Positions 3,864 to 63,864 of a stretch of 64,000 nt of DNA are shown here, piece by piece. The stretch's first letter is position 1. Every line of letters starts with the position of its first letter. The notes below the pieces were generated by a model. It saw only the letters and a list, made by a program, of their open reading frames with translations, was not told the DNA's origin and did not search any database. A program made the position numbers and the translations under genes. The DNA is from an uncultured Verrucomicrobiota bacterium (GTDB lineage: Bacteria > Verrucomicrobiota > Verrucomicrobiia > Limisphaerales > UBA9464). Location of the stretch: contig CAIVQH010000019.1 of the NCBI GenBank assembly GCA_903907995.1, forward strand, positions 1-64,000, read 5' to 3'.

Positions 3864-6457
3864 ACAAAACTCCCAACGCGGCCATCGACCAGCGGCTCTT
3901 CAACCTCGATCCGACCGATGCCGTTTCCAATCAGCAGACGGTCCCCTGCACCTGGTGGTGTGGCACGCGGCTGGTCACCTTCGCCCAGATCATGGAGGTG
4001 GCCAACCGGTTCACCCAGCCGGCACCGGATGGCGGGAAGAAGGGCGGCGGCGGTGGTGGCAAAGGCGGCAAGGGTGGCGGTGGCAGCTCTTCGCTGAACC
4101 ATTTTGGCACGGTTGGCTACCTGATCGGCTGCGGGCCGATGGAGTTCATCTCGGGCTATGTCCAGGACAACGCCCTGGTGTGGCCGGACGCGCCGCAATG
4201 GCCGGCGGGTCGCGGCGCACTTGCCTCGCTCAAGGTCGTGCGGACTTCGAACCTGGTCGGCTGCCAATGGGCGGCGGCCCACGGCTGCAAGGTGGGCGAC
4301 TTCGTGAGCATCGCCGGCTTTAACGACTCCACTCTGAACACGCCCTACGTCGTCGTGCAGGCCCCGCTCGATGCGTACTCTTTTTCGTGGACGGCCGCCG
4401 GTCCGGACATCACGTATGGCCCCGATGGCAGCGGCTACATGACGAAGGTGGTGGACATCGTCGCCGGCGACCTGCGCCGGCTTGGTGCGCAGATCACCGA
4501 CCAGTCGGCCGTCCGCGCCGTCGTGGCGGACATTCTGGCTCACTGTGACGGCTGGCTGGCCTTCAACGCGGCCGGCGCGATCGTCGCCGGCCATTGGCCG
4601 CACAACGAGGCCCCGCCGGCGTTCACGGACGCGACCACGGTGGACGTGGACGATTGCCTCAATGGCGAGGAGATCGCGTGGGATTCGGACGGGTGGGATG
4701 GCACGGCCAGTCAGGTCACGGTGACGTACTCGGATGCCGAGCACGCCTACAAGACGCTGCCGGCCCTCGCGCCCAATAGCTGGAATCTGGAGGCCAGCGG
4801 CCGCCCGAAACCGGAGAGCGTGGACCTGCAGCATGTCACCCGCGCCGGCCAGGCGCTCGCCATCGCCGCCCAGCGGGCGAAACTGCGCGGCGAGCTCACC
4901 TTTGGCGGCACGCTCAAGCTCCGGCGGGAGAAGGTGGTGAGCATCAAAGTCGGCAGCCTCTTCCTGCTGACCGACGATCTGCTCAGCATCTCGCGGATCT
5001 GTCGCTGCACCGAGTTGACGATCAGTGCGCCTCCCGAGGCCCGGACGGAGATCGTCTACACCACCGAGCCTGGCTACACGTCCACGCCTTATCGGCCCGC
5101 GCCGGCGGCGGTCCAAGGCACCGATCATCCGAGGCCCACGTTGCCTGCCCACTATCAGCTGGTGCAGCTCCCGCAGCTGCTCACCGGGAAGGGCTTCGCG
5201 GCGGCCGCTATCTGCGCCCGCGAGGATCTCACAACCTCCCGCCTAGACGTGTGGTTTCGCCAGGCCGACAGCAGTTCTTTTTACGAACTGGCCTCGTTGA
5301 CCCATTTCGCTGTGAGCGGCCAGGTCAACGCGACCTTCGCGCCTTACGCCGGCGTGGACGACGACACCCAGCATGTCGCGATCCTGCTCGATGACCGGAC
5401 GCCTCAGCCCGATCTCGATCATGTGCTCGCAACGCAGACCGACGACGCGATCAATGACAACGCGCTGATGCTCTTCCTGTTCAAGGCGTCGTCGCCGGCG
5501 CAATTCGAGATCCTGACGGTGAAGCAGATCACGGCCGCCGGTGGTGGTGTTTACAACGCCGTGGTCCGCCGCGCCCGCTACGGCACGCTCCAGGGTGGCG
5601 ACGGCACCTACAGTTTCGATTCCGGTGACACCGCCTTCCTGATCTACCGCGAGGAGTTGGTGGCGTTCGAGCACTCGCAGTTCGCAGCGTTCGCGGCCGC
5701 TGGCACCGCCGCCATCTTCCGCCTTGTGCCCAGCACCGCCTGGATCGAGGGAGACGTGACGGATGCCTATGACGGCAGCACGAACGCCGGCGGCGTGACG
5801 GCTGAAGTGAGCTTCACGTTCACCGATCCTTTCGCTGCCACCATTTCGTTCGTCAGCCTTACCCAGGCCGGATCGGCCGTGGTCTTTTCGACCACCTACG
5901 CCACGACGGACCCGTTTGCCATCCAGGTCCGCTTTGGCTCACCCCTGGGAGATATGACGACGGCAACCATCAAGGCGCGGCTGGGCAGCACGGACATCCT
6001 GATCTGGTCGGGAACCCTCCCGCCAGGCAGCACGAGCACCCTCATCACCCCCACATTGCCCTTTGTGCTCTCGGCCGAGGGTAACTGGCGCATCATTGCG
6101 GCTGTCCAGACGGCTGCCGGCCGTAGCACGGCCGCCACCCTGCAGGACTCCGGCAGCGATGCGGCCGTCCAGGTGCGGGCCGCCGGCAGCACCACGGTCC
6201 TTGCGCCTACGGCCACTCCGGCAGGCTACATTGGCACGCACACCACGACGACGACCGGCCTTGCCTGTGCCACCGCCGGCGCGACCATCCACTACCAGAT
6301 CGTTTCCATCGGCGCTTCACCCGGAGGCTCTTGGACGACCTACACCGGCACCTTCCCGGTCGGCCGCAACAAGACGCTCTACGCCTACGCCTCCAAGGGC
6401 GGCCTCACGGACAGCCCGGTCCAGAGCTGGGATTTCGAGTACGATTCGGGGCTATGA
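3860..6457 (+). CDS. Phage tail-tip / host-specificity protein
   Basis: This 865-residue frame starts at an ATG overlapping the preceding stop. Residues 60-75 form a Gly/Lys linker, and residues 85-480 resemble the tail-tip proteins of siphophages and gene-transfer agents (J/gp15 type), with the stretch VDIVAGDLRRLGAQ and a later DDLLSISRICRC. The C-terminal 75 residues (PTATPAGYIGTH, GATIHYQIVS, KTLYAYASKGG) match the chitobiase/beta-hexosaminidase C-terminal sandwich domain, common on exported carbohydrate-interacting proteins. It would recognise the host surface. It is the only phage gene here that seems full length, although the N-terminal part is short for this family. Confidence 0.55.
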   Translation: MNKTPNAAIDQRLFNLDPTDAVSNQQTVPCTWWCGTRLVTFAQIMEVANRFTQPAPDGGKKGGGGGGKGGKGGGGSSSLNHFGTVGYLIGCGPMEFISGYVQDNALVWPDAPQWPAGRGALASLKVVRTSNLVGCQWAAAHGCKVGDFVSIAGFNDSTLNTPYVVVQAPLDAYSFSWTAAGPDITYGPDGSGYMTKVVDIVAGDLRRLGAQITDQSAVRAVVADILAHCDGWLAFNAAGAIVAGHWPHNEAPPAFTDATTVDVDDCLNGEEIAWDSDGWDGTASQVTVTYSDAEHAYKTLPALAPNSWNLEASGRPKPESVDLQHVTRAGQALAIAAQRAKLRGELTFGGTLKLRREKVVSIKVGSLFLLTDDLLSISRICRCTELTISAPPEARTEIVYTTEPGYTSTPYRPAPAAVQGTDHPRPTLPAHYQLVQLPQLLTGKGFAAAAICAREDLTTSRLDVWFRQADSSSFYELASLTHFAVSGQVNATFAPYAGVDDDTQHVAILLDDRTPQPDLDHVLATQTDDAINDNALMLFLFKASSPAQFEILTVKQITAAGGGVYNAVVRRARYGTLQGGDGTYSFDSGDTAFLIYREELVAFEHSQFAAFAAAGTAAIFRLVPSTAWIEGDVTDAYDGSTNAGGVTAEVSFTFTDPFAATISFVSLTQAGSAVVFSTTYATTDPFAIQVRFGSPLGDMTTATIKARLGSTDILIWSGTLPPGSTSTLITPTLPFVLSAEGNWRIIAAVQTAAGRSTAATLQDSGSDAAVQVRAAGSTTVLAPTATPAGYIGTHTTTTTGLACATAGATIHYQIVSIGASPGGSWTTYTGTFPVGRNKTLYAYASKGGLTDSPVQSWDFEYDSGL

Positions 6458-6570
6458 CCCTTTTCAGCTGGCTACGCCTGGCGGCCGTCCTGACCCTTTT
6501 CACGATTTCCGCGCACCCTTTTCACGATTTTCTCGCGGTTACAGCGGTCGGAAGACAGGAGTGCGGAGAT

Positions 6571-6673
6571 CTTGGTCATGCTCGTGCTCTTGCTCTTGAT
6601 CCTCTTTTCTTTAACGACCAATCACCGTTGCCCAAGCGAACAAGAGCATGATCAAGAGCAAGAGTAGGAGCAG
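6571..6673. repeat. Inverted pair of hexamer arrays
   Basis: At 6571-6606 six units of the form cttgct run in tandem (cttggt, catgct, cgtgct, cttgct, cttgat, cctctt). At 6638-6673 six complementary units of the form gagcaa follow. The inner 15 bases of each arm (6587-6601 and 6650-6664) are perfectly complementary, so the pair can form a long hairpin with a 48-base loop. It lies just beyond the phage tail gene. It belongs to the class of locus-specific short-unit arrays seen throughout the window. Confidence 0.7.
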
Positions 6674-6680
6674 GAACGCG

Positions 6681-6710
6681 GAGCCAGGCGTCAGAGTCAG
6701 GAGTCAGGAT
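6681..6710. repeat. Degenerate heptamer array over a stop codon
   Basis: Units gagccag, gcgtcag, agtcag and gagtcag follow each other in near-7-base register. The TGA stop of the minus-strand TPR gene (6699-6697) lies inside the array, so the last codons of that gene are made of repeat sequence. Confidence 0.55.
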
Positions 6711-7761
6711 TTAGCGGGGGAAGACCGGAACGCTCGAGCTTACGTTCCCATTCTGCCGCCAGCATCTGCCGATGGTAGCGCAGGCGGCGCGTCAGATCGA
6801 AGAGGTAGTAGCCGGTGGCCGCCACGGCCAGGCCGATCAGCACAAACAGCGGAAGCAATTCGAGTTGCGCTTGTCGGATATGGCGGTGGAGGTCGTCGGC
6901 CTCTTTTTGCAATTCAGGAGCCTGTGCTGAACCGAGCCGGATGGCGCGCTCGAACGCCTTGGCGGCCAGATTCAGATCTTGCTGATGGAGCGAATGCAGG
7001 CCCAACACGACGAAGCAGGCGGGCTCCTCCGGATTCAGCGTGGCCATGTACAGGATTCCCTGTTCGAGGTGGGGGTCAGAACCCAGATCCCATTGGAAAC
7101 GGTAAGCGGGAGGAGCATCCTGCTCGAGTTCGGGAAATTCCCCGTATTCCCCATAAGGATGGTCCCCGGGAGCGAGCTTCCCTCGGAGTTGGCCGTATCG
7201 ACCCATGCCCGGGCGGTTAAACCCCCATGTCCATTCATCCACATAGACATGCCGACGCTGCCAGGCGGCGTCGTGCGCCAGATATTGCAGCAGGGCCAGA
7301 TGGTAGCGTTCGAGGCCGAAGTGGGCGTCGGGGTTGAGCTCCAGGTCGCGGCCGATTTCGTGGGCGGCGTCGGCATATCGACCCATCAGATGGTAGGCGG
7401 TTCCGAGGTTGGCGTGGATGCCGTAGTCGCCGGAAAATCTCGCCAGGACCGGTTCCAGCAAGGCGGCGGCCTCCTTGGCCTCACCCAGCCGGAGGTGGGC
7501 GCCGGCCAGGTCGTTCCACCAGGCCGGGTCGTCCCGGCGCGGATGGCTCTGCAATTCTTCGATGCGCTTCCGCAGTGGCTTGGGATCGGGCGGCTCGGCG
7601 GGGGCGCCGAGTATCACCTTGGCCATCTCAGGTTTTTTAAAACGCTCAGAAAGCAGGGTATCCGAGTCCCACACACAGGCGTGGAGAGAGTCCATCCCAT
7701 AGCCCAAGAAAACAAATATCTGCAGGATCAGCCGGAGGGAAATCCGGCGGGGAACTGGCAT
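6697..7761 (-). CDS. Exported/membrane TPR protein
   Basis: The gene encodes 354 residues from an ATG at 7761; an upstream in-frame extension to 7866 is rejected because it runs into the region facing accA and has no signal sequence of its own. The chosen start gives a hydrophobic leader (LRLILQIFVFLGYGM). Several TPR-like helix pairs follow: WNDLAGAHLRLGEAKEAAALLEP, then GIHANLGTAYHLMGRYADAA, and a third near FVVLGLHSLHQQDLNLAAKAF. A transmembrane segment near residues 305-325 (LLPLFVLIGLAVAATGYYLF) leaves a basic tail. Between the TPRs sits a Trp- and Pro-rich insert with no recognised domain. It is divergent from accA and probably binds partners at the membrane. Confidence 0.65.
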   Translation of the reverse strand: MPVPRRISLRLILQIFVFLGYGMDSLHACVWDSDTLLSERFKKPEMAKVILGAPAEPPDPKPLRKRIEELQSHPRRDDPAWWNDLAGAHLRLGEAKEAAALLEPVLARFSGDYGIHANLGTAYHLMGRYADAAHEIGRDLELNPDAHFGLERYHLALLQYLAHDAAWQRRHVYVDEWTWGFNRPGMGRYGQLRGKLAPGDHPYGEYGEFPELEQDAPPAYRFQWDLGSDPHLEQGILYMATLNPEEPACFVVLGLHSLHQQDLNLAAKAFERAIRLGSAQAPELQKEADDLHRHIRQAQLELLPLFVLIGLAVAATGYYLFDLTRRLRYHRQMLAAEWERKLERSGLPPLNPDS

Positions 7762-55865: not shown

Positions 55866-57434
<1,569 letters not shown>

Positions 57435-57474: not shown

Positions 57475-58980
57475 ATGAAAAAACTATTTCTTTCCCTTCT
57501 AGTCGCCGTGGTGGGCCTGACCGGCGCGGTCTCCCTGCGGGCTGAGGACGCCCCGGCCGCCGCCGCCGCCTCAGCAACCAATGCTCCCGCTGCCGCCAAG
57601 GCAGATCCAACTCTCGAACAGCGTATTACCGACCTCGAGGCCTACGTGAACAACGCGGCCCGTCTGGCCGATGCCGCCGACGCCAAGGTAAGCTCGAAGA
57701 TCAGCGGCTCCGGCCCCGGCCATAACAGCTTCCAGATGGTCTGCGCGGCCCTCGTGCTGTTCATGACGCTGCCCGGCCTGTTCCTGTTCTACGGCGGCCT
57801 CGTCCGCAAGAAGAACATCCTCTCCGTGGTCGCCCAGTGCTTCGGCATTGCCGGCCTGGTGACGATCCTCTGGTGGGCCTTCGGCTACAGCTTCGTCTTC
57901 GGTGACGGCTCCACGCCCTGGTGGGGCAGCTTCAGCAAGTTCGCCTTCCTCAAGGGAGTCGACTCCAATCCCAACGGGAACTACAGCTACTGGGTTTCGC
58001 AAAACGTGTTCTCCATGTACCAGCTCATGTTCGCGATCATCACCCCGGCGCTCATCGTCGGTGCCATTGCGGAACGCATGAAGTTCTCGGCCATCATGCT
58101 CTTCGTCGGCCTCTGGATGGTCGTCGTTTACTTCCCGCTCGCCCACGCGGTGTGGGGCATTGACGGTGCCATGAACGGTGTCTGGAACCCCAAGGCCTCC
58201 ATCCGTGCGATCGACTTCGCCGGTGGTACCGTGGTGCATATGAGCTCCGGTTGGAGCGCGCTGATCCTCTGCCTCATCCTCGGGCCGCGCACGGGCTTCG
58301 GGAAGGCCAACATGGCCCCGCACAGCATGACGCTCTGCGCCATCGGCACGGGCATGCTCTGGGTCGGCTGGTACGGCTTCAACGCCGGTTCGGCGGTGGC
58401 CGCCGACGGTGTCGCGGCGAACGCCTTCATGACCACGACCATGGCGACCGCCGTGGCCTCCTTCGTCTGGCCCATGCTCGAATGGGTCATCCGCGGCAAG
58501 CCCAGCATCCTCGGCTTCTGCTCGGGTGCCGTGGCCGGTCTGGTGGTCATCACGCCTGCCTGCGGTTTCGTGAACACCACGGGTGCGGTGATCATCGGCG
58601 TGCTCGCCGGTGTGGTGCCGTTCCTCGCCTGCGCCTACCTCAAGCCGCTGCTCAAGTATGACGACGCGCTCGACACCTTCGGCGTCCACGCTGTCGGTGG
58701 CACGCTCGGTGCCCTCGTGACCGGCTTCCTCGCGACGGCCGATGTCAATGCGAACCTTGCCGGTGATCCGGCCAAGGCCAACGGCCTGGACAAGCTGGTC
58801 GGCCACGGCCTCTGGATGGAACAGCTCAAGGCCATGGGCTTCACCATCGTGCTCGCCGTCGTGGGCACCGTGGTCATCGCCTACATCGTCAAGGCGGTTG
58901 TCGGCCTGCGTCCCACTGTGGAACAGGAAGACACCGGTCTCGACCTCAGCGACCACGGCGAAGAGGGCTACCACAGCTGA
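57475..58980 (+). CDS. amtB: Ammonium transporter
   Basis: The 501-residue product has a cleavable signal peptide (KKLFLSLLVAVVGLTGAVSL), an Ala-rich and helical periplasmic start (residues 25-80), then eleven predicted membrane segments. Family marks are FMTLPGLFLFYGGLVRKKN, AIDFAGGTVVHMSSGWSALI with the first pore His, WVGWYGFNAGSA, and DTFGVHAVGGTLGALVTG with the second pore His. The C-terminal tail is short and acidic. It conducts ammonium or ammonia. A strong terminator ends the glnB-glnK-amtB unit. Confidence 0.95.
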   Translation: MKKLFLSLLVAVVGLTGAVSLRAEDAPAAAAASATNAPAAAKADPTLEQRITDLEAYVNNAARLADAADAKVSSKISGSGPGHNSFQMVCAALVLFMTLPGLFLFYGGLVRKKNILSVVAQCFGIAGLVTILWWAFGYSFVFGDGSTPWWGSFSKFAFLKGVDSNPNGNYSYWVSQNVFSMYQLMFAIITPALIVGAIAERMKFSAIMLFVGLWMVVVYFPLAHAVWGIDGAMNGVWNPKASIRAIDFAGGTVVHMSSGWSALILCLILGPRTGFGKANMAPHSMTLCAIGTGMLWVGWYGFNAGSAVAADGVAANAFMTTTMATAVASFVWPMLEWVIRGKPSILGFCSGAVAGLVVITPACGFVNTTGAVIIGVLAGVVPFLACAYLKPLLKYDDALDTFGVHAVGGTLGALVTGFLATADVNANLAGDPAKANGLDKLVGHGLWMEQLKAMGFTIVLAVVGTVVIAYIVKAVVGLRPTVEQEDTGLDLSDHGEEGYHS

Positions 58981-59936: not shown

Positions 59937-60791
59937 TCAACCGATCTGGATCACCAGGGCCGTGGTGTTGTCGCGGCCATCCTTGGCGACGGCGGAGGCG
60001 ACCAGATCTTGGGCGGGATTGCCCGGCTTCTTGGGTGGCTTGGCCGGCCGTAGCAGATCAACCAGATCGTGGGTGTAGAGCCCCTCGGTCAGGCCGTCTG
60101 AGCAGATTAGAAAAATGTCTCCCGGCTCATAGGCGACGGCTCCGACCTGCGGGTCCACGAACTGGTTGCCACCGCCCAGGGCCTTCTGGAGGACGTTCCG
60201 GCGCGGATGCGTGCGGGCTTCCCGCTCGTTGAGCTGCCCCTGGCGCACCAGCCAGCCAACGTGCGTGTCGTCCTGGCTGAGCTGACGGATTCCGCCCTCC
60301 CGGGCCGGCAGATAGTAGATCCGGCTGTCGCCGATATGCGCGAAATACATCCAGTCCGGCGCAAACCAGCAGAGACTCAGGGTGGTCTCCATTCCCGAGC
60401 ATTCCTCGTAGCTGCCACCGACATACACCAGCGCCCGGTGGATTTGCGCGTAAAGCTCCGTCAGAACGTCGGAAAAACCGGCCGCCAGCCCGGTGGCGGA
60501 CTGTTGAAACGAGCGCGGGAGCAGGGTGGTGATTTTTTCCACGGCGATCCGGCTCGCAAACTCCCCGGATTTCGCCCCGCCCATGCCGTCGCTCACCGCA
60601 AACGCAAAGTCGGTGCTGCGGACGGAAGCCTCGCCAAATTTGCCCAGTCGCTGCGCCTCGCGGGCATCGAACCGGAGGCCCAGAAAGGCGTCCTCGTTGT
60701 TTTTCCGCACCTTGCCCACGTCCGTGCAGCCGAACCACTTCAGCTGCCCGGCCGCACTTTTTCGGGGGGGATTATCCAGGCCGGATTTCAT
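59937..60791 (-). CDS. PP2C-type protein phosphatase
   Basis: The 284-residue protein has PP2C motifs in order: GCTDVGKVRKNNEDAFL with the first metal Asp, FAFAVSDGMGGAKSGEFAS, the metal motif, FAHIGDSRIYYLPA, LSQDDTHVGWLVRQGQ, and ICSDGLTEGLYTH with the second metal Asp, ending KDGRDNTTALVIQIG. It removes phosphate from Ser/Thr. Its ATG overlaps the stop of the small kinase-like gene upstream by four bases, so the two are translated together and are likely partners. Confidence 0.9.
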   Translation of the reverse strand: MKSGLDNPPRKSAAGQLKWFGCTDVGKVRKNNEDAFLGLRFDAREAQRLGKFGEASVRSTDFAFAVSDGMGGAKSGEFASRIAVEKITTLLPRSFQQSATGLAAGFSDVLTELYAQIHRALVYVGGSYEECSGMETTLSLCWFAPDWMYFAHIGDSRIYYLPAREGGIRQLSQDDTHVGWLVRQGQLNEREARTHPRRNVLQKALGGGNQFVDPQVGAVAYEPGDIFLICSDGLTEGLYTHDLVDLLRPAKPPKKPGNPAQDLVASAVAKDGRDNTTALVIQIG

Positions 60792-61171
60792 TCGAACCCC
60801 GGAAGGAGGGTGGCAAACTCGAAATCGATCACACAGAAGCGGCCGTCGGACTGACGGTAGGTCACGTTACGCATGTCCGGATCATCATGGCGGACGCCGA
60901 ACTGCTCAAGCTCCGCAAACAGCTCCCGCATCCGCGCCTCGTCCAGGTGTTCCACGCGGGAGCCGCAATTGGTAGTGATGATGCGCAGCTTGCTGGCATC
61001 CGCCTCGAGCAGGCGAGGGGTGAAGCCGCACCCCTGCGCTTCCAGATGCTTCAGGATCCGCACCTCATTGGCAAAGCGCGTTGCGGCGTCCGGGCCGTGG
61101 TAGGTCTTGGACACCCGGCCATCGAACCCCAGATAGACGGTCGCCCGGAGCGTGTCTTTGACTTTCAGCAT
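60788..61171 (-). CDS. Miniature kinase-like protein
   Basis: The 127-residue frame holds a shortened kinase pattern: TVYLGFDGRVSKTYHGPDAATRFANEVRIL provides a strand, a Lys and a helix with Glu, and FGVRHDDPDMRNVTYRQSDGRFCVIDFEFATLL gives an HxD-x4-N catalytic loop and a DFE in place of DFG. This fits small RIO/Bud32-type or phosphotransferase kinases, although the N-lobe and the C-terminal lobe are much reduced. It overlaps the PP2C gene (ATGA), which strongly suggests a kinase-phosphatase pair. Activity cannot be shown from the sequence. Confidence 0.65.
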   Translation of the reverse strand: MLKVKDTLRATVYLGFDGRVSKTYHGPDAATRFANEVRILKHLEAQGCGFTPRLLEADASKLRIITTNCGSRVEHLDEARMRELFAELEQFGVRHDDPDMRNVTYRQSDGRFCVIDFEFATLLPGFE

Positions 61172-61624
61172 GATCGTGGGTCGCCGGTGCCAACTGCCTC
61201 CGGCCTATGGCGTAGTATGTTCCCAATCCGACCGCTCCGTAAGTGCCGAATGCGATTTTGGTTCAGTTTTTTTCGCGTGGAACCGATGGGCTAACCGGGT
61301 GTTCCACCCGCGCAGCATAAGACCTGCTTTAGCGTAAGAGTCGGCTTCGGCATTATCCGGGGTGCTTTTCTGCGCGGATTTGCCCACTTCATACGCCGTT
61401 GGTGGGCAATCAGGGGCAGGGTGGTCAAACGGCTGCATGGGCATTTCGCCCTTTTTCCTCCGCAAATCGGCGTTTCCGGCCGGATTTCCATGAAAAGTCT
61501 TCACCCATACCGTGTTCTTGATTCTTCGCCCCGAGACTGCGCATGTTTTTGCGTACGCGGCATCCCACGTGCTTGAATTGTCCCGCTCTGCGGGACCAAA
61601 TCAATAAGTCCCACAATTACATCC
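61172..61624. other. Leader region of the glutamine synthetase gene
   Basis: No gene is credible. The stretch holds a sigma-54-like site, listed separately, and a short inverted repeat (gtggaac at 61277-61283 and gttccac at 61301-61307). The long leader fits regulated transcription. Confidence 0.45.
61422..61437 (+). promoter_or_regulatory. Sigma-54-like promoter before glnA
   Basis: The sequence tggtcaaacggctgca has GG at 61423-61424 and GC at 61435-61436, ten bases apart, with CTGCA as the -12 block. It lies about 190 bases before the GSII gene. As for the site before PII, chance occurrence is possible. Confidence 0.4.
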
Positions 61625-62674
61625 ATGGCTAAATACAAACTAGAATATATCTGGCTCGATGGTTACGACCCCGTGCCGAACCTCCGTGGCAAGACTCAGC
61701 TCAAGGAGTTTTCGAGCTTTCCCAAGCTGGAAGAACTCCCGATGTGGGGTTTCGACGGCAGCTCGACCCGTCAGGCTGAAGGCCGCAGCTCCGACTGCAT
61801 GCTGAAGCCGGTTGCGGTCTTTCCCGACAGCACCAAGAAGAACGGCGTGCTCGTCATGTGCGAAGTCATGATGCCCGATGGCGTCACCCCGCACCCGAGC
61901 AACTCCCGGGCAACCATCCTCGACGACCCCGGCGCCTGGTTCGGGTTCGAGCAGGAATACTTCCTGTACAAGGATGGCGCTCCCCTCGGCTTCCCGCCGG
62001 GTGGCGGCTTCCCGCCGCCCCAGGGCGAGTACTACACCGGCGTGGGCTACAAGAACGTCGGCAACATCGCCCGCGAAATTGTCGATACCCACCTCGACCT
62101 CTGCCTTGACGCCGGCATCAACCACGAAGGCATCAATTCCGAAGTGGCGAAGGGCCAATGGGAATTCCAGATCTTCGGCAAGGGCTCCAAGAGCGCGGCC
62201 GACCAGGTCTGGATGGCCCGTTACCTCCTCCTCCGCCTGTGCGAGAAGTACAGCGTGGACGTCAACTTCCACTGCAAGCCCCTCGGCAAGGATGTGGACT
62301 GGAACGGCTCCGGCATGCACTCCAACTTCTCGACCAAGCACATGCGCGAAGTCGGCGGCAAGGATTACTTCGAGGCGCTCATGGCGGCCTTCGACAAGTA
62401 CAAGAACGAGCACATCGCCGTCTATGGTCCGGACAACCACCTGCGCCTGACCGGTCTGCACGAGACGCAGTCCATCGACAAGTTCAACTACGGCATCGCC
62501 AACCGTGGCGCCTCGATCCGCGTCCCCCACAGCTTCGTCAACAACGGCTACAAGGGCTACCTGGAAGACCGTCGTCCGAACTCCCAGGGCGATCCCTACA
62601 AGATTGCGAGCCGCATCCTGCAGACGATCGCGACGGTGCCGCTGCCTGCCCCTGCCAAGAAGGGCAAGAAGTAA
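61625..62674 (+). CDS. Glutamine synthetase type II (GSII)
   Basis: The 349-residue enzyme is of eukaryotic type II, far shorter than GSI: YIWLDGYDPVPNLRGKTQ, LPMWGFDGSSTRQAEGRSSD, the metal and substrate motif FGFEQEYFLY, YYTGVGYKNVGNIAREIVD with HLDLCLDAGINHEGINSEVAKGQWEFQI, VDVNFHCKPLGKDVDWNGSGMHSNFSTK, and NRGASIRVPHSF. It condenses ammonia and glutamate to glutamine with ATP. It lies downstream of the PII/amtB group, interrupted by the phosphatase pair. GSII lacks the adenylylation Tyr of GSI, so control is likely transcriptional. A strong terminator follows. Confidence 0.92.
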   Translation: MAKYKLEYIWLDGYDPVPNLRGKTQLKEFSSFPKLEELPMWGFDGSSTRQAEGRSSDCMLKPVAVFPDSTKKNGVLVMCEVMMPDGVTPHPSNSRATILDDPGAWFGFEQEYFLYKDGAPLGFPPGGGFPPPQGEYYTGVGYKNVGNIAREIVDTHLDLCLDAGINHEGINSEVAKGQWEFQIFGKGSKSAADQVWMARYLLLRLCEKYSVDVNFHCKPLGKDVDWNGSGMHSNFSTKHMREVGGKDYFEALMAAFDKYKNEHIAVYGPDNHLRLTGLHETQSIDKFNYGIANRGASIRVPHSFVNNGYKGYLEDRRPNSQGDPYKIASRILQTIATVPLPAPAKKGKK

Positions 62675-62783: not shown

Positions 62784-63641
62784 TCAGCGAAATTGCGGGT
62801 GCGCCGCGAGAGCGGCGGCACTGGCCGGCGAAAGTGGCATCTGCCGGTACACCGCCTCCACCATCGGTTCAGCGCTGGTCGAGCGGCGGGCGCGCGCCAG
62901 CCAGTCCAGTCCCAATGCCTGGGCCAATAAATCGGGTGAATTGGCCGCGATGGTCGTCTCCTCCTTTTCGCCTGTGGCCGAGCCGGTTCCGACAAACCAG
63001 CCGGCCAGCAGCAGGGTGACCCGCAGCAAAGTTGCCCTCGAATAGGTCGCCAGCGTGCAGGGCACCGCCGGGCCCAGCCGCTCATGCAGCTGTCGGAACA
63101 GCGGCAGGGTCCACATGGCCATGTTCTTGGCGGGAGAATAGGCGTCGAAGAAAATTGCGTTCGGACTGGGCCACGAGCGGGCAGCAGGCGAACCGAGCAG
63201 GGCCGGGAAGTCACCGGTATGGACCTGCCAGCGGACCTGGTTTGCGCCGTTCTGGAAGGTTACAGCCCCGTTCGCGAGCAGGGTTTCGCAGGCCGGTTCG
63301 TAGCCATCGTAATAACCCAGCTCGGCCGCGTGCTCCAAGGCGAAGCGCAGCGGCTTCAGGGTGTGGTCAAAGCTCACCACCCGAAGCTGGCCCGGCAGTT
63401 CGCGCAAGGCCCTGAGGGCGGTCAGCACGTTGGCCGCCGCCCCCAGGCCGACGTCCCAAATCACGAATTCGCCCTCCGAATGCCGGGCAAAGCGCTCCGC
63501 GAGCTGAAGCTGCCGAACATACAGGGCCTCGGCCTCGGCCACGGGGCCGACCACGGGATGAAACGTTTCCGCCTCGGCCACGGAGCGGACGCTCCAGCTG
63601 CCGTTCTTGAGCTGTACGAGTTGAAAATCGGGCGAAACCAT
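62784..63641 (-). CDS. MnmC-like methyltransferase domain protein
   Basis: The 285-residue product starts at an ATG at 63641 (MVSPDFQLVQLKNGSWSVRS); another ATG at 63653 is possible. The pattern fits the MnmC-type methyltransferase (Methyltransf_30): LKNGSWSVRSVAEAETFHP, FVIWDVGLGAAANVLTALRAL as the SAM-binding loop, and AIFFDAYSPAKNMAMWTLPLF as the acidic motif, then CTLATYSRATLLRVTLLLAGWFVG. In E. coli this domain methylates aminomethyl-uridine-34 of tRNA. The FAD domain of MnmC is absent. It is convergent with GSII. Confidence 0.8.
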   Translation of the reverse strand: MVSPDFQLVQLKNGSWSVRSVAEAETFHPVVGPVAEAEALYVRQLQLAERFARHSEGEFVIWDVGLGAAANVLTALRALRELPGQLRVVSFDHTLKPLRFALEHAAELGYYDGYEPACETLLANGAVTFQNGANQVRWQVHTGDFPALLGSPAARSWPSPNAIFFDAYSPAKNMAMWTLPLFRQLHERLGPAVPCTLATYSRATLLRVTLLLAGWFVGTGSATGEKEETTIAANSPDLLAQALGLDWLARARRSTSAEPMVEAVYRQMPLSPASAAALAAHPQFR

Positions 63642-63747
63642 CGCTGGGCCGCGCATATTCGGGGAAGCGCGACGGACACCAAGCCGAAAGCGCATCGTAA
63701 CTTGAATTCCCCGCTTGCCGCATGCGTTTCCGTTCTCCTTAATCCGC

Positions 63748-63842
63748 CGCGCCAGGGCCCATGGAACGCGGACTTACGAACCCCGCCAGGGCCGGAAGGC
63801 AGCAACGGTAGTTTGCTCCCGTCTGCCGTGGTCACCCTGGTT
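63748..63842 (+). ncRNA. ffs: Signal recognition particle RNA, small bacterial type
   Basis: The core gccggaaggcagcaacggta near 63790-63810 is the conserved SRP RNA tetraloop/asymmetric-loop region that binds Ffh. Outer segments ccaggg (63752-63757) and ccctgg (63835-63840) pair and close the hairpin. The length of about 95 bases is that of 4.5S RNA. It lies 22 bases upstream of dnaX, a conserved neighbour. It works in co-translational targeting of membrane proteins. Confidence 0.9.
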
Positions 63843-63864
63843 TCCTTTTTCTGTCCGCGTCCAG

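Follow-up and report, generated by a model that had tools for sequence, protein, structure and literature searches.

KIN, a kinase-like protein of 127 residues, and the PP2C-type phosphatase encoded beside it are very probably tied in function to type II glutamine synthetase (GSII), and we lean, though only slightly, towards a dedicated reversible covalent switch for which GSII is the substrate. The two genes are located in a 64,000-nucleotide stretch of DNA from an uncultured Verrucomicrobiota bacterium, referred to here as the window (Table 1), and across the class to which it belongs (Verrucomicrobiae, judging from record titles) the KIN–PP2C pair is probably a covalent switch of GSII. The computed evidence consists of kinase and phosphatase signatures, the fold of KIN, natural fusions of the two proteins, co-occurrence and adjacency with GSII, and complementarity with GlnE, the bifunctional enzyme that acts on type I synthetase (GSI).

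Table 1. Features of the KIN–PP2C locus and its surroundings in the window
Feature	Position	Strand	Remarks
KIN	60788..61171	minus	127 aa, ATG start; predicted minimal kinase-fold protein
KIN key residues			K22, E36, H95/D97/N102, D116-F117-E118; from translation and conservation
PP2C-type phosphatase	59937..60791	minus	284 aa, ATG start
PP2C metal motifs			NED 32-34, SDGMGG 67-72, SDGLTE 231-236, GRDN 272-275; from sequence
Overlap of KIN stop with PP2C start	60788..60791	minus	ATGA on the sense strand
GSII-type glutamine synthetase	61625..62674	plus	Divergent from KIN; candidate substrate
KIN–GSII divergent intergenic region	61172..61624	.	453 bp
Ammonium transporter AmtB	57475..58980	plus	TIGR00836, 408 bits
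PII signal protein with T-loop (11 residues)	57096..57434	plus	
Second PII signal protein	56450..56788	plus	112 aa
MnmC2-like tRNA methyltransferase domain protein, after GSII	62784..63695	minus	NF033855, E 1.3e-20, below cut-off
Small SRP RNA (Bacterial, RF00169)	63750..63845	plus	67.5 bits, gathering threshold 40

Kinase fold of KIN

An earlier note on this DNA had described a 127-residue protein with HxDx4N and DFE motifs, coupled to a PP2C gene by a four-base overlap and set in a nitrogen region. The reading frames and their translations agree with this description: HDDPDMRN fits HxDx4N, VIDFEFA contains DFE, the four bases are common to both frames, and two PII genes, amtB and GSII are found nearby. 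A VxK motif at Lys22 and an αC-like Glu36 are also present. The GSII gene, which that note does not mention, lies outside the span given there (59937–61171), at 453 bp from KIN. Shared sigma-54 control of the divergent genes was considered and rejected; the intergenic region has no match to a sigma-54-like TGGC-N7-TTGC sequence with at most one mismatch, and the whole window has 100 such matches versus 82 expected.

Because Pfam APH (PF01636) matches KIN above its cut-off (29.5 bits versus 23.2, E 8e-7, residues 68–122 only), and homologues occur in many genomes (83 of 145 in a separate genome tally), KIN is not a chance reading frame. APH is matched at E ≤ 0.01 by 82 of 84 KIN members. The Kdo/WaaP and Bud32 models match below cut-off (22.7 bits versus 125 for the Bud32 NCBIfam model TIGR03724), and Pkinase (PF00069), which represents the Hanks-type Ser/Thr kinases, is not among the six families that match KIN at E ≤ 1. 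KIN is single-copy in its own genome, where two further matches have E values of 0.5 and 0.6, and a search of the plasmid collection returned no KIN match at 1e-5. PADLOC found nothing for KIN and matched PP2C weakly (E 2.1e-5), and a role of the pair in defence was rejected on this outcome.

Structure prediction, which the earlier note had proposed as a check, gave a confident kinase fold for KIN (AlphaFold2 with an 84-row alignment; pLDDT 95.4, pTM 0.88). The best Foldseek matches in the PDB are Ark1 (PDB code 8yv4; E 1.7e-6, TMq 0.71) and its ATP-bound form (PDB code 8yv5; E 2.6e-6, TMq 0.72), followed by Bud32, PRPK, WbdD and RIO2; 193 matches have E ≤ 0.001, and the 50 that were listed are kinases or kinase-domain proteins by title, including RNase L. 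In VIA-align, the scores of RIO2 (Z 12.6, rmsd 3.3, 120 residues aligned), PRPK (Z 12.4, rmsd 3.0, 125 residues) and Ark1 (Z 12.2, rmsd 2.8, 112 residues) do not separate the three from one another or from certain eukaryotic kinases, e.g., ALK2 (Z 12.5), and these rows, as those from Foldseek, indicate a common fold only. Comparison of the model with ATP-bound Ark1 aligned 113 residues. At the sequence level, KIN alone has no convincing match in the PDB (best E 0.59), and a KIN profile matches CK2 and CDC7 weakly, with E 0.0019 at best. The chain stops nine residues past DFE, and the usual C-lobe helices that come after the activation segment are absent. Most protein kinases use the helices after DFx for binding of the protein substrate. 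From the model, we consider with high confidence that KIN would be a pared-down kinase fold in which the core remains, i.e., the N-lobe, the catalytic loop and the DFE strand.

Bud32 acts in KEOPS, and Ark1 acts on tRNA. A small kinase fold is what KIN has in common with Ark1, Bud32/PRPK and the RIO kinases, which are its closest structures, but the solved Ark1 chains have 171–173 residues, whereas KIN has 127 and is accompanied by PP2C and GSII as neighbours. It is nevertheless conceivable that the phosphate acceptor of KIN is RNA or a small molecule, as with Ark1 or APH, for instance an analogue of glutamate or glutamine, and that PP2C hydrolyses the product. The best fold match is an RNA kinase, the best Pfam match is a phosphotransferase family that includes small-molecule kinases, and KIN lacks a C-lobe platform for a substrate. 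Fusion with a PP2C of the Ser/Thr phosphatase type and the GSII-specific co-occurrence described below are hard to explain with an RNA or drug substrate, and we regard this possibility as quite unlikely.

An alignment of 146 distinct KIN sequences, obtained by removing identical ones from 191 and spanning 42–100% identity to the sequence in the window, shows Lys22, Glu36, His95, Asp97, Asn102, Asp116 and Glu118 to be invariant, and Phe117 is present in 145. Further invariant residues include Lys5, Arg32, Pro52, Gly70, Arg101, Thr104 and Tyr105. Having DFE instead of DFG is not necessarily a sign of decay in KIN, which retains its remaining catalytic residues; DFE is also present in choline-kinase-like enzymes. 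The earlier note had left a choice between a minimal kinase and a pseudo-kinase adaptor for the phosphatase; the former stands as a prediction from the fold and the catalytic residues, but the latter is disfavoured, because all 146 homologues retain every catalytic residue and KIN thus does not look like a pseudokinase in sequence. A related proposal is that KIN serves as a non-catalytic regulator of PP2C that binds ATP or another ligand. Its very small size, the missing activation segment and the fusion to PP2C in several lineages are compatible with such a role, but a pure adaptor need not retain the catalytic residues, whereas all 146 sequences have them, even at 42% identity, and we give the proposal very little credence. 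A pseudokinase review (PMC12599244) contains none of the terms PP2C, glutamine synthetase and Verrucomicrobia. Three cysteines in KIN are also well kept, Cys48, Cys69 and Cys113 being found in 145, 143 and 141 of the 146 sequences, respectively. Unfused KIN has a median length of 131 residues and a range of 124–157, with starts set by a simple rule.

The PP2C partner and its fusion with KIN

The phosphatase in the window matches Pfam PP2C_2 well above the cut-off (67.4 bits versus 24, E 1.6e-18), and the Stp1/IreP model NF033484 below it (177.4 bits versus 230, E 3e-52). The aspartate residues of the metal motifs are invariant in 17 aligned KIN–PP2C fusions.

The neighbourhood survey that the earlier note had suggested, and by which a lack of conserved linkage could have been exposed, instead shows the two genes to be strongly linked, with natural fusions included. 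Among the best 80 of 256 KIN loci, which are on genome contigs mostly titled Verrucomicrobia, Limisphaerales or Pedosphaera, 79 have PP2C downstream of KIN in the same orientation; the exception is a contig that ends 21 bases after KIN (L034). KIN and PP2C share one open frame of 411–461 codons in 15 of 40 loci from the class, a set chosen partly for long-frame KIN matches. Fusion also occurs in L078 and in L098, to which L101 is identical in sequence, and these cluster with sequences from the order of the window. On a KIN tree of 91 rows, with few columns and many unresolved forks, the fused state changes at least six times, gain of fusion and splitting not being distinguishable. A script applied to all loci found 153 same-strand KIN–PP2C pairs within 1500 bases, 22 fused ones, and 13 outside this range, overlaps included; since some genomes were sampled more than once, the loci cannot be counted as independent genomes. 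The AlphaFold2 model of a fusion contains two good domains, but because the linker (residues 126–130) is poorly modelled and the pTM is 0.67, no docking of the domains was read from it.

In family f64, eight loci (L192–L198 and L200) have GSII together with PP2C while KIN is located elsewhere. In L158, from the same family, KIN (5788–6183) is apart from both PP2C and GSII, and directly follows and overlaps a reading frame (6180–7577) that by eye resembles an MgtE-type magnesium transporter with CBS domains.

A kinase gene adjoining a PP2C gene is an arrangement known from linked Ser/Thr kinase and PP2C pairs, and the examined text of the GOS survey notes that PP2C adjoins Ser/Thr kinase genes (PMC1821046). 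Those pairs have a standard Ser/Thr kinase domain, and PASTA among their neighbours, whereas KIN matches APH/Kdo and not Pkinase. The same text reports that bacterial type II GS is abundant, its neighbours including PII and a histidine kinase, and a link between PP2C and GSII is absent from it.

GSII and GlnE in relation to KIN

The glutamine synthetase in the window scores 359.2 bits with the GlnII model NF041605, below the cut-off of 500, but this is still the best model by far. Its sequence is closest to solved GSII PDB code 4bax (E 2.6e-89), with 3fky and 2d3a also close, and these relationships support assignment to type II.

In a search of 286 genomes of the class with KIN, GSII, PP2C and GlnE, KIN was found in 139, after removal of one chance match before counting (G194, residues 5–59, E 9.4e-4). 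The KIN-type PP2C is present in the same 139 genomes, and eight weaker PP2C matches (E about 1e-21 to 1e-25) were found in genomes that lack KIN. GSII occurs in 141 genomes, namely 138 of 139 with KIN versus 3 of 147 without it, an association for which Fisher's test gives p 1e-77 with kinship ignored. The only KIN without GSII is on a 6-kb contig (G252). Conversely, GSII without KIN is found in G072, G122 and G332. In the first two, amtB and GSII adjoin with no KIN–PP2C between them, and in G072 amtB directly precedes a GSII gene that is cut by contig ends.

At least 14 families in the class sample include genomes both with and without KIN (tables read by eye), and the association with GSII therefore does not reflect one deep split. 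In 12 of these families (f1, f11, f13, f42, f51, f64, f67, f72, f74, f83, f84 and f89) the listed members without KIN also lack GSII, the membership of such rows in the 286-genome sample being taken from handle numbers for f74 and for part of f72 and f64; the exceptions are f24 (G072 and G122, with G355 lacking both) and f76 (G332).

The association extends to gene position. KIN and GSII are at most 5 kb apart in 111 of the 138 genomes, 102 of these pairs being divergent and 9 co-directional. In 23 of the other 27, the genes are on different contigs, some of which are probably assembly breaks, and in 4 they are 25 kb to 1.2 Mb apart; genomes in which the distance is very large (G119, 1.2 Mb; G309, 1.1 Mb) keep all three genes. 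Among the best 80 of 256 loci, GSII is a neighbour in 63, AmtB in 45 and PII in 42, all three counts being depressed by contig ends. GSII is present in 36 of the 40 class loci (absent from L148, L152, L158 and L159), and in the 36 class loci from outside the order of the window, it is found in 33, and AmtB in none. In 288 genomes of the phylum, two matches outside the class (G524 and G567) were rejected as KIN, being by eye a methyltransferase-kinase and an APH-like protein. GSII encoded on rhizobial plasmids is 74–80% identical to that in the window, and given that KIN has no plasmid match at 1e-5, close relatives of this GSII do without KIN. Co-occurrence of KIN and GSII could also reflect a shared regulon rather than an enzyme acting on its substrate.

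One form of the regulon explanation is that KIN–PP2C modifies PII (GlnB/GlnK), and that the linkage to GSII arises through the nitrogen regulon only. PII is present in 42 of the best 80 of 256 loci, which judging by record titles belong to the order of the window, a T-loop with Ser49 is found in 52 of 53 PII matches, and PphA dephosphorylates PII in some cyanobacteria (PMC4285133). Outside the order, however, PII is found in 1 of 36 class loci, compared with GSII in 33, and in that locus (L148) it is 5.5 kb from KIN with no GSII; another locus from outside the order, L209, has PII beside PP2C. Moreover, an identical PII T-loop exists in G122, which has no KIN, and GlnD, the usual modifier of PII, is above cut-off in every KIN-containing genome of the panel described next. 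PII is thus a weaker candidate substrate than GSII, and its modification by the pair in place of GSII is unlikely.

GlnE (E ≤ 1e-20) was found in 99 of the 286 genomes, 12 of 139 with KIN versus 87 of 147 without, and is mostly complementary to KIN. In a panel of 30 genomes, 17 with KIN and 13 without, where the type of synthetase was judged by score and length instead of type-specific models, GSII is the sole Gln-synt_C match in 14 of the 17. The exceptions are G288 and G295, with further relatives of 447–500 codons, and G249, with a GSI-like gene. Full GlnE is present in seven panel genomes (G059, G063, G144, G152, G156, G172 and G249), and these are exactly the ones with a GSI-like match (E ≤ 5e-134, 473–511 codons); weak GlnE matches elsewhere in the panel are mostly within GlnD genes. 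Six of the genomes without KIN have synthetases of 714–780 codons, assigned to type III from their size alone; two of the six have an additional relative of 451–465 codons, and G122, also without KIN, has GSII only. GlnD is above cut-off in 26 of the 30 genomes, including all 17 with KIN, which suggests that uridylylation of PII is probably present alongside KIN–PP2C.

A putative covalent switch of GSII

The control that GlnE exerts on glutamine synthetase by covalent modification is textbook metabolic regulation, and to our knowledge bacterial GSII is generally taken to be without such control. In the mechanism that we propose, the target of KIN would be a GSII residue with a hydroxyl group, to which it would in the simplest case transfer phosphate from ATP; this would probably lower the activity of the synthetase, and PP2C would strip the mark. 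The balance between the two activities would be set by nitrogen status, perhaps via PII, with glutamine, 2-oxoglutarate or PII as possible input signal. From the combined evidence we infer catalysis by the pair, GSII as its substrate, the direction of the effect and the nature of the signal. In this role KIN–PP2C would be the counterpart for GSII of GlnE, an unrelated bifunctional enzyme that serves GSI. A wider reading is that Verrucomicrobiae have a further form of covalent GS control, in which GSII is modified reversibly, with phosphate or AMP, by a PP2C and a 127-residue kinase that ranks with the smallest complete kinase folds, the two being repeatedly fused and replacing GlnE where GSII replaces GSI; as a joint statement this could equally well prove right or wrong.

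GlnE and KIN–PP2C have in common that two opposed activities are devoted to one synthetase (a role that for KIN–PP2C is conjectural), that the activities are sometimes on one chain, and that each system is found where its type of synthetase occurs. They differ in that GlnE acts on GSI through a pair of nucleotidyltransferase domains, whereas KIN–PP2C combines a kinase fold and a PP2C with GSII. No sequence relation between GlnE and KIN or PP2C is apparent from Pfam, as the GlnE domain PF03710 matches neither protein at E ≤ 1. AceK-like bifunctional enzymes phosphorylate a metabolic enzyme and dephosphorylate it again with a single protein, and AceK does so with one active site; KIN–PP2C differs by using two domains of unlike folds. 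PphA, which acts on PII in cyanobacteria, is likewise a dedicated phosphatase in nitrogen control, but its target is PII, and the examined passages of PMC4285133 mention no mini-kinase that adjoins the phosphatase or is fused to it.

The parallel with GlnE also raises the possibility that the transferred group is AMP. SelO is a kinase-fold nucleotidyltransferase and SidD has a PP2C-like fold, and by analogy KIN could adenylylate GSII, with PP2C acting as de-AMPylase. The functional position parallel to that of GlnE agrees with this, and the de-AMPylase SidD (PMC3656104) is a precedent. KIN nevertheless retains the full canonical set of residues for phosphotransfer, PP2C resembles phosphatases of the Stp1 type, and nothing in the data points specifically to AMP transfer, which we consider very unlikely and do not favour over phosphorylation.

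Several findings count against the proposed switch of GSII: three genomes have GSII without KIN, 12 genomes with KIN also have GlnE, the fold most similar to KIN belongs to an RNA kinase, and KIN is devoid of the helices after DFx. If the proposal is true, the switch is a case of convergence for which the substrate is named and one-chain enzymes exist in nature. A catalytic KIN of 127 residues would also lower the size known to us for a kinase fold, and would raise the question of how the substrate binds without the usual C-lobe. Among the open-access papers listed, with subscription ones largely outside, none describes the KIN–PP2C pair.

For a possible modification site, 123 distinct GSII sequences (one of which, from L202 of G332, is without a detected KIN) were compared with four rhizobial sequences and with that of G122, which lacks KIN. 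Only Leu278 and Gln282 separate the 123 sequences from the rhizobial ones, each being present in 122 of 123, and G122 has both. The only consistent difference is in the loop after the HET motif, GLHETQSID versus GKHETAPW in three of the four rhizobial sequences, and G122 has the loop version of genomes with KIN. Ser283 (122 of 123), the best candidate site, was rejected as a diagnostic marker, being alanine in G300 (L210), which has KIN, and serine in G122, in one of the four rhizobial sequences and in the solved structures 3fky and 7cpr. No modification site emerged from this comparison.

In two of the rhizobial plasmid loci, where GSII is 78% identical to that in the window, a small DUF2735 gene (L212, 3252–3437; L213, 3306–3515) is situated divergently upstream of GSII, in the place that KIN has in the window. 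Several MAG records (L039, L040, L046, L083 and others) bear titles that name Akkermansia muciniphila, Proteobacteria or Methylacidimicrobium, yet their KIN is 76–82% identical to that in the window; these titles may be wrong. Finally, G350 encodes two GSII proteins, 73% and 49% identical to that in the window, each beside its own KIN–PP2C fusion (L143 and L144). The divergent second gene (L144, 8174–9169) is directly downstream of its fusion, and a duplicated system is possible.
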